Shown: piece by piece, positions 27,282 through 35,927 of the stretch
Position numbering within the stretch: the first letter of the stretch is position 1
How the letters are laid out: each line of letters begins with the position of its first letter
DNA from: an uncultured Clostridia bacterium
GTDB taxonomy: Bacteria; Bacillota; Clostridia; Christensenellales; UBA1242
Length of the DNA: 64,000 nucleotides
Direction: 5' to 3'
NCBI GenBank assembly: GCA_944345705.1
Contig: CALVML010000001.1
Location: 1-64,000 of the forward strand
Translations under genes and position numbers: made by a program
The notes under the pieces: model-generated
What the model saw: only the letters and a program-made list of their open reading frames with translations
What the model was told of the DNA's origin: nothing
Database searches by the model: none

Positions 27282-27327
27282 TTTTATATCAAATATCAAT
27301 ATCACCTTGCTTAAAAGTGAGGGTATT

Positions 27328-30024
27328 ATGGAAAAAATAAAATTTAAATATTATAATTGGCTTTTTTATATCATTTTACTGATATTATTATTTTTATTGA
27401 TTAATACATTTTTAATGAAAGAAAATCAGTCTGAAGCAGCAACTATAAGAGTTTCAGTATATACGCAAAACACGTCTGGAAATTATGCCTTGAGTAGTGC
27501 TGGAGTAAGCACAGTATCAATTCAATGTTTAGGGGAAGGAATGGCATTTAATACGGGGCTGATTACTCCACCTGCTACTTCCTGTGAAATTTCACTAAGG
27601 GCTAATTTAATGTTATGTTCATATTCATGCACCATCAATCAGGGATTTTCAGGCTCAACTTTTGGAGAATTGTATAATGGCAATGCTACATCTTCATTTA
27701 GTGGCAGAATAGACATATCAAGAAATCAATACACTGCAAATTTTTATACTGTTATAGATGGAGTTAATACTCTTTTATCTTCTTCACGATATTACTATCA
27801 AGCGAATTTTAGTTTACCATCGGCACCATCATATACAGGTTATAGTTTTGATGGATGGTACACATCTGCTAGTGGAGGATCCTTAGTAACAAGTGGAACT
27901 ATGTCATTAAATGGAGTAAATTATTATGCACATTATTCTAAACTTCAATATAATGTAACGCTTGATAATCAAAACGCTACTACTTCGGGGACTACGAGTA
28001 TAGTAGCAACATATGGTCAATCTATGCCAACTATTACACTACCAACAAAAAACTATTATACATTTTCGGGATATTATTCAGGTTTGAACGGAACTGGAAA
28101 TCAATATTATAATTCTAGCGGAAACAGCACAAGAAACTATGATGTTTATTCTGGTATAACATTGTATGCCTATTGGGTTGAAAATTCGATTTCAGCCACT
28201 TTGCATTTTCAAGATAATTCTACGTCTGATATTATGGTATCAGTAGCATATAATCAATCTGGATCTTATCTAAATTTAACATCACCAACTCGGTCCGGAT
28301 ATACTTTTAATGGCTGGAATCTTAATCAAGATGGTACAGGCAGGGTCTATTCAACTAGTACTAACTTTAATAATATCAATGAAGTTGAAGATCAACATTG
28401 TTTATCAACACCAAATGCTGGGAATATCTCTTTTGATCTCTATGCACAGTGGGAAACAAATCAATTAATTGCAACATTAAAATATTTAAATGGAACATCG
28501 GATGGACGTGCATCAGCTGAGTATGTGTCTAGTGCCACGAAACTTGGTTTGCCAGAACTGAGTCGAACTGGCTATGAATTCAAGGGCTGGAGTCTAACGC
28601 CTAATAATACAGGAGTATATTATGATGCTGATACAAATTGGAATAATGTAAGCGTCTCTGTCGATAATAAAGATGTATGTATTTCAGATGTAAATGTTGG
28701 AGATATATACTTTAATCTTTATGCTATATGGGAAGCGAATGAATACAAAATAAATTATAACTTAGCTGGTGGTAGTCATGGCTCGTCACATCCAACAACA
28801 GCAACCTACCGCGATAAATATGATGAAAATAGTGGAGAAAATGATAATATAATAAATATTTCAAATCCTACAAAAAAAGGCTATACATTTACAGGCTGGA
28901 CGGCGAGTGGACTTTCTAATACAGCGCAGGCAGGCGGAGCGTCATGGAACGGCACTGCAACAACAGCAACTGCATTTAAAAATTTAACAGCAAAAGATGC
29001 GGAAGATGGTGGCACAGTTACTCTTACAGCAAACTGGACAGCAAATACATATACAATAGCCTTTAATGGAAATGGCAGTACAGGCGGAAGTACTTCTTCA
29101 ATGAAAGCAACATATGATAGCAATGTAACACTTACTGCAAATGGATTTATAAAGGCAGGCTATGTATTTACAGGCTGGAATACCAAAGATGACGGAAGTG
29201 GCAAAAGTTATTCAGACAAAGAAACAGTAAAGAACTTGACAAGCGTGGATGGTGCAACAGTTACTCTCTATGCACAGTGGGAAGATACTTGGGCAAATCA
29301 TGCATCGTCATCTTTGAAAACAACGGAAATAAACGGAGTTACATACAATGTCATCGCATCGGCAGAGGATTTAGCGTATTTATCAAAGCAGTCTATTTCT
29401 AGTACACTGCTTGGCAAATATATACAAACAGCAGATATTGACTTAAATGATTATACTTGGCTTCCAATAGGCAGTGAAAATGCATTCTGTGGTGAATATT
29501 TAGGACAGGGATATAAGATTACAGGACTTAAAACATGTGATGCAAAAAATGCAAATAAAGTGTATTTACAAACATACGGTGGACTATTTGGAAAACTTGG
29601 AGAAAACAGTACTACTGATGCGAGCGCGAATATAGTCGGCGTCTATATAACAGATTGTCTGGTGTATGGTCAATATAGCGGTGCTATTGCTGGTTTTAGC
29701 GAAGTTGACTCTATAAATATTGAAGCATGTATATTAGAAAACATTGAGATCGAAGGAAACACTACTGCAAGTTTTGTAGGATTATCTAGTGGCGGACAGA
29801 TAAAAGATTGCCTGCTTATATCATCAAACATATCAACAGCAAACACAACAACTCGTGGATTTTATACAGGTAGTATGACAGTAAAGAGTTGTTACTTTGT
29901 AGAGAACAATTCTGCGACAAGGTTTACAGGTGAGTCGAGCGATTATTCAAATTGGATAGAAGATGTATTTATCTATCCTATGCCTTCTATTGTAATTTGG
30001 TATCCAAACGAAAATGATTTTTAA
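27328..30024 (+). CDS. Large secreted surface protein with six InlB-type B-repeats
   Basis: The 898-residue protein has a hydrophobic N-terminal segment (about 8-28) ending before SEAAT, consistent with a signal peptide or anchor. Six Listeria-Bacteroides (InlB B) repeats follow, recognisable by GYxFxGW ... LYAxW: GYSFDGWY, FSGYYSG, GYTFNGWN, GYEFKGWS, GYTFTGWT and GYVFTGWN. The last about 230 residues (YNVIASAEDLAYLSKQ, GGLFGKLGE) resemble GLUG-type beta-helix repeats. No LPXTG or other anchoring motif is visible at the C-terminus. ATG 27328 is preferred over TTG 27307 because GAGGG is well placed. The role is probably adhesion or extracellular structure, by analogy only. Confidence 0.85.
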   Translation: MEKIKFKYYNWLFYIILLILLFLLINTFLMKENQSEAATIRVSVYTQNTSGNYALSSAGVSTVSIQCLGEGMAFNTGLITPPATSCEISLRANLMLCSYSCTINQGFSGSTFGELYNGNATSSFSGRIDISRNQYTANFYTVIDGVNTLLSSSRYYYQANFSLPSAPSYTGYSFDGWYTSASGGSLVTSGTMSLNGVNYYAHYSKLQYNVTLDNQNATTSGTTSIVATYGQSMPTITLPTKNYYTFSGYYSGLNGTGNQYYNSSGNSTRNYDVYSGITLYAYWVENSISATLHFQDNSTSDIMVSVAYNQSGSYLNLTSPTRSGYTFNGWNLNQDGTGRVYSTSTNFNNINEVEDQHCLSTPNAGNISFDLYAQWETNQLIATLKYLNGTSDGRASAEYVSSATKLGLPELSRTGYEFKGWSLTPNNTGVYYDADTNWNNVSVSVDNKDVCISDVNVGDIYFNLYAIWEANEYKINYNLAGGSHGSSHPTTATYRDKYDENSGENDNIINISNPTKKGYTFTGWTASGLSNTAQAGGASWNGTATTATAFKNLTAKDAEDGGTVTLTANWTANTYTIAFNGNGSTGGSTSSMKATYDSNVTLTANGFIKAGYVFTGWNTKDDGSGKSYSDKETVKNLTSVDGATVTLYAQWEDTWANHASSSLKTTEINGVTYNVIASAEDLAYLSKQSISSTLLGKYIQTADIDLNDYTWLPIGSENAFCGEYLGQGYKITGLKTCDAKNANKVYLQTYGGLFGKLGENSTTDASANIVGVYITDCLVYGQYSGAIAGFSEVDSINIEACILENIEIEGNTTASFVGLSSGGQIKDCLLISSNISTANTTTRGFYTGSMTVKSCYFVENNSATRFTGESSDYSNWIEDVFIYPMPSIVIWYPNENDF

Positions 30025-32589: not shown

Positions 32590-33777
32590 ATGATTGTACT
32601 CTATATCATCCTTGCAATAGTTGTCCTACTCTTTATGGTTTTAATACATGAGTTTGGACATTATGTTGTTGGGCGAATGCTTAATTTTAAAATTACTGAG
32701 TTTTCTGTAGGGTTTGGCAAAGCCCTTATTTCTCGTAAAAATAAACGAGGAGAACTTATCAGTTTAAGATTATTTCCGCTGGGCGGATACTGCGCTTTTG
32801 CTGGAGAGGATGATGACGAAACCAAGGATAAAGATTCATTTGTCAATCAGAAACCATGGAAACGAATTTTAGTATTTCTTGCAGGTGTCACTTTCAATTT
32901 TGCATTTGCAGTCATTATGTCACTTGTTTTGTTGTGTACTATTGGATATGATATTCCACAGTTTGTCGAATATGCAACTCTTAACTCTTCAAATGTTGAG
33001 CATATTGTTGATGGGAGTGCAATTACAAATGTGCCAGAAGGGGAAGGATTACAAGCAGGTGATGTAATAATTTCAATAGACGGCAAAAAAATAGATTTTG
33101 CGTATGGCTCAAATTACAATGATCTTGTAAATGCTATGGTTAGTGATCTTGATGAATATATGGATAATGCTAGAGAAAATCCTAATTTCGATGAGCAGTC
33201 AGCATTCTTAGCATATCCAACAACATCTGCAATCGTTCGAAGAGATGGAGAGTATGTTGAAGTTCAATTAGGGTTTAGCCAAGCACAAGTAGAAAAGTAT
33301 GATGGCAATAATCCAGTATTAGACAATGATGGAAATGTAGTTAGAGAATATAAATATTATTGGACAGTCAATGTGCAAGCCTATGTCTATTCATTCTCTG
33401 AAGCGCTTGAAAGAGCAGTGCCATTTGCTTTCGGTCTTGCATGGATAGTTTTAAAGAGCCTATTTCTCTTGATAACATTCCAGCTTCCACTTTCTTCAAT
33501 AGGGGGTCCTGTTACAACTATTGCAACTATTGCATCGTTCACTCAAATGAATCTATCAAATCTTTTACTTTTAATACCGCTGATTTCAGCCAATCTTGCC
33601 GTATTCAATATTTTACCTATACCAGCTTTAGATGGAGCGCATGTACTATTTACTACAATCGAGGCGATTAGAAAAAAACCGATCAAACGAGAAAAGGAAA
33701 ATATGATTCATGCCATAGGATTAATAGTCCTATTTGGCTTTGTCATTCTGGTTGACATTTTGCACTTTTTATTATAA
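32590..33777 (+). CDS. rseP: Site-2 intramembrane protease RseP/YluC
   Basis: This zinc metalloprotease cuts membrane-bound anti-sigma factors and signal-peptide remnants. The 395-residue protein has HEFGHY (about residues 20-25) in the first span, a PDZ domain (about 135-270, with GLQAGDVIISIDGKK) and the second catalytic motif NILPIPALDGAHVLF in a C-terminal span. The AGGAGAAT site supports the start. It sits between cdsA and the PolC-like gene, as in many Firmicutes. Confidence 0.95.
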   Translation: MIVLYIILAIVVLLFMVLIHEFGHYVVGRMLNFKITEFSVGFGKALISRKNKRGELISLRLFPLGGYCAFAGEDDDETKDKDSFVNQKPWKRILVFLAGVTFNFAFAVIMSLVLLCTIGYDIPQFVEYATLNSSNVEHIVDGSAITNVPEGEGLQAGDVIISIDGKKIDFAYGSNYNDLVNAMVSDLDEYMDNARENPNFDEQSAFLAYPTTSAIVRRDGEYVEVQLGFSQAQVEKYDGNNPVLDNDGNVVREYKYYWTVNVQAYVYSFSEALERAVPFAFGLAWIVLKSLFLLITFQLPLSSIGGPVTTIATIASFTQMNLSNLLLLIPLISANLAVFNILPIPALDGAHVLFTTIEAIRKKPIKREKENMIHAIGLIVLFGFVILVDILHFLL

Positions 33778-33786
33778 AATACCAAT

Positions 33787-35343
33787 ATGAAAAATTTGGT
33801 AGAAATAATTAATGAACATTTTAATAATAAGTATAATTATTTGAAACTTTTGGATATTATCTATGACAGAGAAAATATGCTTTGTCAGATAACCTTTCTT
33901 TATCCTTATCAAATAGAAAAAATAGAAGATGAAGATAGGTCGGAAATAGAAAAATTTATCCAAGAGTTTTTTCATATAAATGCCACAATAAAAATCAAAT
34001 ATAAGAAAAGTTTTTTAGATGAAAAACTTATTAAAGCCGATACTATTAAATTTTTTATTGAAAATAAAAAAGCATTATTACCATATATTGAAGAAACAAA
34101 TATCTCATCAGCAAATCACGAGCAAGATGTAGATGTTGTTATAAATCTCAATCAAGACATTCTGGCTTTAATAGATGAAGCCGAATTAAGAAATGAACTA
34201 AAAACTTTTTTATCAAAATTATATATAGCAGATTTTAATATAGAGTTAAATCAAACCGAAGACAAACTACCTGATGAAATAATAGCACAGGATATACAAA
34301 TATCGCGTGCAAAGGTAAAGAGATATAAAGTTGAAGTCATAAAAAAAGTGGTTGGAGATGATATCATTCCTATGCCAGAATTTATTGGCGAAAATAAAGT
34401 GCCAAAAGTATCGGTTATTTTAGCAGGGCTTATATCTAATATCAATCAAAAAAAATTTATCATTAAAAAGGGAAAGAATGCTGGCAAAGAAAAAAGTCTA
34501 TTTACATTTAATTTAAGAGATTCAACTGGTGTTATTGATTGCGTATATTTTTGTCCAAAGACACATGAAAATGCCTTAAATGCCTTGCAAGATGGTGACT
34601 TTTTATTACTTGTAGGCGATTTAAAGGTAGGTTTAACCAATAAACTGACTTATTACATTAGAAAGATCTCTTATGCGACAATGACTAAAGAAGTTTTAAG
34701 TGACGTTACAAGTGATAATCCACTTGAAAATCACAAGCAAATTATCTTTCCTGAAACTATTACAAACAGTACTCAAACTAATCTTTTTGAAGTTAAAAGT
34801 AGTTATGATGATTACATAATGAACAATAAATTTGTTGTTTTTGACCTAGAAACGACAGGGCTCGACTTTGAAACAAGTGAAATAATTGAAATTGGAGCAG
34901 TTAAAATAGAAAATGGCGAGATTAAAGAAAGATTTTCGTCTTTTGCAAAACCTAAATTTCCTATTCCACTTGAAGCACAAAAAATAAACAATATTACAAA
35001 TGAAATGGTCGAATTTGCACCAAAGATTGAAGATGTCATAATAGATTTTTATAATTGGTCAAGAGGTTGTATAATCAGCGGATATAATATAGTTGGCTTT
35101 GATATGAAATTTTTGACAAAAGTTGCAAGTAAAATAGGGCTAAAATTTGACAATGAAATCATTGACACTATGATAGTAGTAAGACAGTCTAAATTACGTA
35201 CAACAAATTATAAACTCACGACAGTGGCTAAGACATTAGGTATCGACTTGACAGATGCTCATAGAGCCTATAACGATGCTCACGCGACTGCTAAAGTCTT
35301 AATGGAACTTCATAAACTTAAGAAAAACAAAAATAAATCTTAA
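33787..35343 (+). CDS. PolC-derived protein: N-terminal domain, OB fold and DEDDh exonuclease only
   Basis: The 518-residue protein follows the N-terminal part of the Firmicutes replicase PolC. It has a helical N-domain (1-about 200), an OB-type domain (about 205-300, LFTFNLRDSTGVIDCVYF) and a proofreading exonuclease (from about 350). The last has D353/E355 in FDLETTGL, FDMKFL and the closing HRAYND, so all DEDDh residues are present. Both PHP halves that flank the exonuclease in PolC, and the whole polymerase and C-terminal region, are missing; the protein ends right after the exonuclease. It occupies the usual polC position between rseP and rimP. No polymerase motif follows in any frame I read. 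A standalone proofreading or repair exonuclease is the likely product. Confidence 0.85.
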   Translation: MKNLVEIINEHFNNKYNYLKLLDIIYDRENMLCQITFLYPYQIEKIEDEDRSEIEKFIQEFFHINATIKIKYKKSFLDEKLIKADTIKFFIENKKALLPYIEETNISSANHEQDVDVVINLNQDILALIDEAELRNELKTFLSKLYIADFNIELNQTEDKLPDEIIAQDIQISRAKVKRYKVEVIKKVVGDDIIPMPEFIGENKVPKVSVILAGLISNINQKKFIIKKGKNAGKEKSLFTFNLRDSTGVIDCVYFCPKTHENALNALQDGDFLLLVGDLKVGLTNKLTYYIRKISYATMTKEVLSDVTSDNPLENHKQIIFPETITNSTQTNLFEVKSSYDDYIMNNKFVVFDLETTGLDFETSEIIEIGAVKIENGEIKERFSSFAKPKFPIPLEAQKINNITNEMVEFAPKIEDVIIDFYNWSRGCIISGYNIVGFDMKFLTKVASKIGLKFDNEIIDTMIVVRQSKLRTTNYKLTTVAKTLGIDLTDAHRAYNDAHATAKVLMELHKLKKNKNKS

Positions 35344-35415: not shown

Positions 35416-35442
35416 GGGAGCGTGCAAAATTGCAACGCTCCC
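35416..35442 (+). promoter_or_regulatory. Long hairpin in rimP leader
   Basis: GGGAGCGT pairs with ACGCTCCC, and GCAA/TTGC continues the stem inside. It starts about 9 nt after the predicted transcription start and ends 23 nt before the ATG. No T tract follows, so it is not a simple terminator; NusA-linked feedback is a possibility only. Confidence 0.55.
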
Positions 35443-35465
35443 TACTTCATAAAAAGGGGGATATA

Positions 35466-35927
35466 ATGGCTGGAAAAGTTAAAACTATATGCGAAGAAAA
35501 AATTTCGCCGATCATTGAAGAAATGGGATATGAAGTTGTCGATATAGAATATAGCAAGAAATCGGACGGTATGAATTTAATATTCTACATTGACAATGAA
35601 AATGGTGTAAACATTGAAGATTGTGAAAAGGTTTCTAAAGTGATTGATCCTATTCTTGACGAAATCAATCCAACTGATGATCAGACTTATATATTGAGTG
35701 TGAGTTCGCCAGGAATTGATAGGCCACTTAAAACTGATCGCGATTTTAAACGCAATATAGGAAATGAAATATCAATAACAACATTTTCCAAGATTGATGG
35801 AAATAAAAAATTCGAAGGCAAACTTATCTCTTTCGATGAGAAACAAGTCACTATTGAACAAAAAGAAAAACAGATATCTATTCAACGAAATCAAATTGCA
35901 CACATTGTGCCAATTATAAAATTTTAA
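35466..35927 (+). CDS. rimP: Ribosome maturation factor RimP
   Basis: RimP helps assemble the 30S subunit. The 153-residue protein has the N-terminal domain EEMGYEVVDIEYSK and the mid-region SVSSPGIDRPLKTDRDF, typical of the family, then the C-terminal Sm-like barrel. ATG 35466 is preferred over an in-frame codon 12 residues upstream because AAAGGGGG precedes it. It opens the rimP-nusA-ylxR-ylxQ-infB-rbfA operon. Confidence 0.95.
   Translation: MAGKVKTICEEKISPIIEEMGYEVVDIEYSKKSDGMNLIFYIDNENGVNIEDCEKVSKVIDPILDEINPTDDQTYILSVSSPGIDRPLKTDRDFKRNIGNEISITTFSKIDGNKKFEGKLISFDEKQVTIEQKEKQISIQRNQIAHIVPIIKF

Follow-up and report, generated by a model that had tools for sequence, protein, structure and literature searches.

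What does a gene at the polC locus do when it no longer encodes a polymerase? The question arises from the window analysed here, the first 64,000 nucleotides of contig CALVML010000001.1 from an uncultured Clostridia bacterium, in which a preliminary description had placed, between rseP and rimP, a 518-residue protein keeping the N-terminal domain, the OB fold and an intact DEDDh exonuclease of PolC. The open reading frame and its position were confirmed, as were the three domains, by profile-profile comparison, Pfam and the five catalytic residues, and the locus is composed as follows.

32590..33777, + strand: rseP, upstream neighbour (open reading frame, synteny)
33787..35343, + strand: PolC remnant, 518 aa, with N-domain, OB fold, clamp-motif linker and DEDDh exonuclease (ATG-start open reading frame, Pfam, profile-profile comparison, predicted structure)
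33787..34311, + strand: PolC-type N-terminal domain, residues 1-175 (profile-profile comparison with PolC N-domains, E 2.2e-9; alpha/beta fold, confident except for residues 161-180)
34330..34683, + strand: OB fold, residues 182-299 (Pfam PF01336 at residues 210-293; profile-profile comparison with PolC, E 9e-13)
34684..34830, + strand: lower-confidence linker, probably flexible, residues 300-348, in place of the first PHP half of PolC (pLDDT 56-78 in blocks 301-340; no PHP)
34774..34788, + strand: putative beta-clamp-binding motif QTNLF, residues 330-334 (Q330 invariant in an 18-sequence alignment; kept in 80/86 intact and 0/19 dead relatives)
34831..35322, + strand: DEDDh 3'-5' exonuclease domain, residues 349-512, catalytic D353, E355, D439, H492 and D497 (Pfam PF00929, E 2e-34; PDB 2p1j, PolC exonuclease, E 1e-27; dN/dS 0.018)
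35430..35927, + strand: rimP, downstream neighbour (open reading frame, synteny)

Nine bases separate the end of rseP (33777) from the ATG of the remnant, and 86 bases lie between its stop codon and the rimP frame (from 35430), which is followed by nusA, ylxR and infB. Elsewhere in the window, upstream of frr, positions 27307-30024 encode a 905-aa putative secreted protein with several repeats, presumably of the InlB/Listeria-Bacteroides type.

At E<=1, Pfam detected only the OB domain (residues 210-293) and an RNase_T domain (350-505) in the remnant, and no match to PHP, PF07733, PF17657 or PF14579, whereas two full-length PolCs from the order do have PHP and polymerase domains. The 518-residue protein closes with a helix (494-517) of the exonuclease domain, which bears out the earlier reading that both PHP parts and the polymerase are gone and that the protein stops after the exonuclease. 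All five catalytic residues of the latter are intact. The best NCBIfam model for the remnant is PolC, with the exonuclease as best-matching stretch (337-514), and the cut-offs of the PolC models are not met (130 bits against 1043 for TIGR01405, 148 against 873 for PRK00448); among solved structures, the PolC exonuclease of T. maritima (2p1j) is nearest in sequence. The Pfam family for the PolC N-domain gave no match at E<=1 in the N-domain of the remnant, which is too diverged for Pfam, and alignments were therefore compared with alignments. Between 18 remnants and 11 full PolCs of the order, columns 15-513 align with an E value of 3e-67, and both the N-domain and the OB fold match PolC when taken alone, supporting, at the level of sequence, a PolC origin for the N-domain, OB fold and exonuclease. 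A structure predicted from 33 sequences (mean pLDDT 88.7) was confident for these three domains and weaker at residues 161-180 and 301-340, with a low overall pTM (0.46). Its top PDB match in Foldseek is PolC (9qpc; 378 columns), and this supports the modelled domains but, with an rmsd of 20.5, not their arrangement.

A remnant match was present in 37/37 genomes of the genus examined, the source genome included, in frames of 511-567 aa. Compared with the 95%-identical copy of genome G022, the gene is under purifying selection (dN/dS 0.13 overall, single pair), strongest in the exonuclease (0.018), followed by the OB fold (0.08), the N-domain (0.26) and the 45-codon linker, which holds the putative motif and has the highest value of all parts (0.45). 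No PolC polymerase part was found 3' of the remnant or elsewhere in the genome. An assembly error, a split gene or a decaying pseudogene is hardly credible: the genome is a draft (1.28 Mb, 37 contigs, 98.85% complete) and the exonuclease active site has been lost in sister lineages, but the similar frame lengths throughout the genus, the matches in many families, the purifying selection and the lack of a second polymerase part speak against it, and frameshift, truncation and assembly break are ruled out, the preliminary description having already argued against a simple frameshift or stop.

Replication by another polymerase such as DnaE had been anticipated, and the genome complies. Its single DNA_pol3_alpha match lies on a contig other than that of the remnant, and this sole C-family polymerase is a clostridial DnaE (PRK06826, 1437 bits against a cut-off of 1260) with PHP, polymerase, finger, HhH and OB domains. 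The presence of a complete PolC at another site was rejected, since the best TIGR01405 match in the genome (9.8e-39) does not reach the cut-off; neither such a PolC nor an assembly break, the two findings that would have weakened the idea of a reduced replicase, was thus encountered. One match to the sliding clamp was found. The genome meets the criterion for DnaE1-only replication, a single DnaE1-type C-family polymerase with a complete PHP site and a clamp motif; the DnaE1 label was taken for Clostridia from PMC3919608, without a DnaE1/DnaE3 tree. Takeover by a foreign DnaE was ruled out on the five DnaEs that were scored: the two taken from PolC-bearing genomes and the three taken from PolC-less ones are all of the same NCBIfam kind.

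As to proofreaders, the remnant is the sole RNase_T match in the source genome and in 27/28 other tested genomes of its family, the exception being G016, with a second match; G006, outside the 28-genome test, has another DnaQ-like match. The metal site of the DnaE PHP domain was complete in 35/35 sequences read from the order (21 full and 14 partial, the latter from one genus; most positions were called by script, but the final C, D and H were judged by eye), and that of E. coli DnaE is incomplete. DnaE may, to judge from these residues, proofread for itself; the remnant is therefore probably not the only possible proofreader, and may be a second one beside DnaE.

A separate observation concerns dnaX, whose frame at L227 (about 1459-1480, - strand) and L228 (about 2583-2595, + strand) is of gamma length (370 and 367 aa) and ends immediately behind an A9 tract. 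In the -1 frame the sequence runs on for about 115 codons into a tau-tail-like sequence, which is in frame in G126, and programmed slippage giving gamma and tau is probable, on the evidence of two genomes only. The idea of a genus without tau was dropped, given this continuation.

The loss of the polymerase part extends over much of the order, which we take to be the GTDB order Christensenellales. The PolC cut-off was reached in 114/396 of its genomes, and six more (G251, G142, G063, G097, G084, G205) have a partial PolC (E<=2.3e-149); among the remaining 276/396, none has a PolC match stronger than 2.6e-50, and two lack any match. Presence and absence follow families, with exceptions in PolC-bearing ones: six PolC-less genomes there are 69-88% complete (G100, G116, G134, G138, G167, G272). 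Two further genomes (G075 and G360, 94-96% complete) of family f11, otherwise PolC-bearing, have no PolC over the cut-off and are possible independent losses. A profile of the remnant gave strong full-length matches in the PolC-less families, with frames of 500-565 aa among the matches listed (to E 5.6e-118). In the first 61 genomes searched for DNA_pol3_alpha, remnant genomes had one DnaE-like match and full-PolC genomes had PolC and DnaE, with the following exceptions: no match in one remnant genome (G014), matches at contig ends in two (G019, G025), no DnaE match in a PolC genome (G047, 86% complete) and several extra matches in G042 (51% complete). No remnant was found outside the order in the two samples searched: in a sample of the phylum, only the source genome itself was matched (1/398 at E<=1e-75), and in a sample of the class (291 genomes) all non-order matches among those listed were confined to the exonuclease, in frames of at least 902 aa. 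Named records bearing the remnant are mostly metagenome-assembled genomes titled Clostridia or Clostridiales bacterium, one is Candidatus Coproplasma, and several titles name animal gut sites.

In DnaE trees of 21 families and E. coli, one split unites the 12 PolC-less families (FastTree 0.984; IQ-TREE SH-aLRT 93.9, bootstrap 97) and another the nine PolC families (0.958; 98.2/89), supports being read on unrooted splits and the analysis repeated with IQ-TREE. These trees are compatible with the polymerase part having been lost only once, and loss is inferred to be the simpler direction because PolC is present in other orders. All 86 remnant exonucleases used separate from 53 PolC exonucleases on one branch (0.923). 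Full-length PolC in sister families sits at the same locus, and most loci long enough to judge have rseP before and rimP-nusA after the gene; no rimP match was found after L065, L073, L126, L130, L141 and L146.

The sequence QTNLF, which the preliminary description had not mentioned, lies directly before the exonuclease, in a linker that the structural model predicts with less confidence. In full PolCs of the order, a clamp motif of consensus QxSLF stands at the C-terminus, an end that the remnant lacks. For a survey of the motif, 105 remnants were kept from 225 loci (480-600 aa, profile score >100, a single representative of identical copies, none truncated at the 3' end), 86 with all five DEDDh residues intact and 19 in which the active site is lost. 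At the motif site, Q-x-x-[LIMF]-[FL] is present in 80/86 of the intact remnants, with variable second and third positions, against a mean of 1.4 matches per 86, and a maximum of four, in 50 shuffles of the sequences; a match of the search expression in L215 was a shifted, false one and was left out, leaving 80 motif-bearing remnants rather than 81. The motif is present in none of the 19 remnants with a lost active site (Fisher p 5e-16, relatedness ignored). The published clamp consensus is QL[S/D]LF, with positions 1, 4 and 5 the most important (PMC3919608), and these are the positions kept in the remnants. In the absence of binding data, we regard QTNLF as a likely sliding-clamp-binding motif. 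Four of the six intact remnants without the motif come from one genus (f6 g6). These four (L071, L200, L202 and L203) have an intact exonuclease and no QxxLF, and a separate short RNase_T protein was found in the three tested.

The 19 remnants that have lost both the DEDDh residues and the clamp motif (L074, L206-L209, L211-L220, L222-L225) mostly still lie at the polC locus, beside rseP or rimP. Twelve belong to family f20, four to f17 and three to one genus of f32; because they fall in three families, about three independent losses are indicated rather than 19, with the reservation that the residue calls in the most diverged of them (f17) rest on weak alignment. Another RNase_T match exists in 13/19 of the genomes concerned and in 6/19 none was found, so that DEDDh proofreading looks dispensable in the latter, and the proposal that dead remnants are always rescued by a separate DnaQ was not upheld. 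Among the three intact groups compared, the exonuclease is better conserved than any other part, whereas in the four dead groups the OB fold and the inactive exonuclease fold are conserved to a similar degree. Since the gene is retained after loss of catalysis, the rest of the protein must be supposed to have a further role. In one genome of f17 (G052), a separate 449-aa DnaQ-BRCT protein is encoded at L075 (3588-4934, - strand), with a remnant-like frame on another contig. Neither these dead lineages nor the complete PHP metal site of DnaE had been noticed in the preliminary description.

Taken together, we consider it probable, though well short of established, that the remnant is a clamp-tethered, epsilon-like proofreader acting in trans for DnaE, in a clade whose PolC polymerase was lost once; clamp binding, exonuclease activity and action on DnaE products are all inferred. 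The ancestor of these families would have possessed PolC and DnaE1. As DnaE1 assumed all chain elongation, polC would have lost its PHP and polymerase parts once, the gene staying between rseP and rimP-nusA and encoding a protein of about 515 residues. The QxxLF-type motif of the linker would dock the remnant on the sliding clamp beside DnaE, its place next to the exonuclease substituting for the lost C-terminal clamp motif of PolC, and the N-domain and OB fold may help to keep the protein at the fork or on single-stranded DNA. The exonuclease would then remove misinserted 3' nucleotides left by DnaE, a task that in E. coli falls to epsilon (DnaQ). The PolC exonuclease of B. subtilis acts in trans on errors made by DnaE, correcting them within a DnaE-PolC-DNA complex (PMC5627055; trans correction is also mentioned in PMC11890065), and DnaE1s that co-occur with PolC retain a conserved putative epsilon-binding patch (PMC3919608). 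Since the PolC exonuclease already corrects DnaE in trans, selection would be expected to retain that part when DnaE1 took over.

In favour of this proofreader are the single DnaE, the single clamp match, the remnant as sole RNase_T match and the tie between motif and intact catalysis. Against it stand the intact PHP site of DnaE, the 6/86 intact remnants without the motif, the retention of dead remnants, the linker dN/dS of 0.45 and the absence of an epsilon-type tail. A standalone nuclease for proofreading or repair had been suggested at the outset; its origin as a reduced PolC holds, and of the two functions we infer that a clamp-like motif beside the exonuclease, lost together with catalysis, favours proofreading at the fork.

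A variant that is possible but that we doubt gives more weight to the dead lineages: the polymerase would have been emptied once at the base of the clade, leaving a clamp-hooked trans proofreader, and the protein would have been emptied again in at least three sub-lineages to become a non-enzymatic replisome adaptor, with the N-domain and OB fold, not proofreading, keeping the gene. It seems unlikely that the remnant serves as a replisome adaptor with its catalysis intact or not, its N-domain and OB fold linking clamp loader, single-stranded DNA or DnaE and its exonuclease being secondary. The 19/105 relatives that kept the gene without most catalytic residues and without the motif would suit this role, as would the conservation of their OB fold and the described relation of PolC NI/NII to tau domain V (PMC12926913); in the lineage of the window, however, the exonuclease is by far the most constrained part (dN/dS 0.018 against 0.26 for the N-domain).

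We think it improbable, too, that the remnant is a clamp-tethered repair nuclease, one that trims 3' ends during recombination, gap repair or mismatch repair, with DnaE acting as its own proofreader through the PHP domain. Repair proteins often carry clamp motifs, and the PHP site is intact in every DnaE read, but the parent domain is a replicative proofreader and no other RNase_T match accompanies the remnant in the source genome or in 27/28 tested genomes of the family. Less convincing still is an RNA-processing nuclease working with the products of the rimP-nusA-infB operon, which we hold to be very improbable: DEDDh domains act on RNA too and the neighbours are translation and transcription genes, but the locus is inherited and says nothing about function, because full-length PolC occupies it in sister families, and the clamp motif points to DNA.

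The proposed proofreader resembles several known systems without matching any of them. Full-length PolC (B. subtilis PolC; solved structures 9qpc and, for the T. maritima exonuclease, 2p1j) occupies the same operon place and shares with the remnant the succession of N-domain, OB fold and DEDDh exonuclease, but the remnant lacks the PHP, polymerase, finger and HhH domains, has about 515 residues instead of about 1400, and carries its clamp motif before the exonuclease and not at the C-terminus. With E. coli DnaQ it shares a separate DEDDh 3'-5' exonuclease, DnaE as the only C-family polymerase, and a clamp motif, which epsilon also carries. Epsilon binds alpha through a C-terminal tail; the remnant has no such tail, has a PolC-derived N-domain and OB fold in front, and is nearest, among solved exonucleases, to that of PolC and not to epsilon. 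It is therefore neither a PolC, having no polymerase, nor an E. coli-type epsilon, having no tail and another origin, and it probably works like a proofreading subunit. PolC without its exonuclease has been reported in Clostridia and Negativicutes (PMC3919608), likewise a domain loss in PolC plus DnaE1 systems but with the polymerase kept, the opposite of the present case. Where Pol I is absent, a standalone FEN-like 5' nuclease has been found (PMC12926913), again a nuclease kept when its polymerase could be dispensed with, but one from another polymerase family and with the other exonuclease polarity. In the literature searched, which did not extend to full texts or supplements, no earlier description of a polymerase-less PolC was found; the phylogenetic study in PMC12926913 worked from complete genomes and removed truncated sequences ahead of tree building.

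The PolC plus DnaE1 system of Clostridia has been described as experimentally uncharacterised, and losing PolC is among the proposed routes by which DnaE1-only replication could arise (both PMC3919608). The clade described here shows that route with an intermediate preserved, the polymerase gone and the proofreader staying. It offers a natural test of what the N-domain, OB fold and exonuclease of PolC do without a polymerase, and of whether a DnaE1 with an intact PHP domain still needs a DEDDh proofreader. Finally, we predict from it, as an inference only, that PolC-inhibiting drugs would find no target in a large number of Clostridia, including many from guts.
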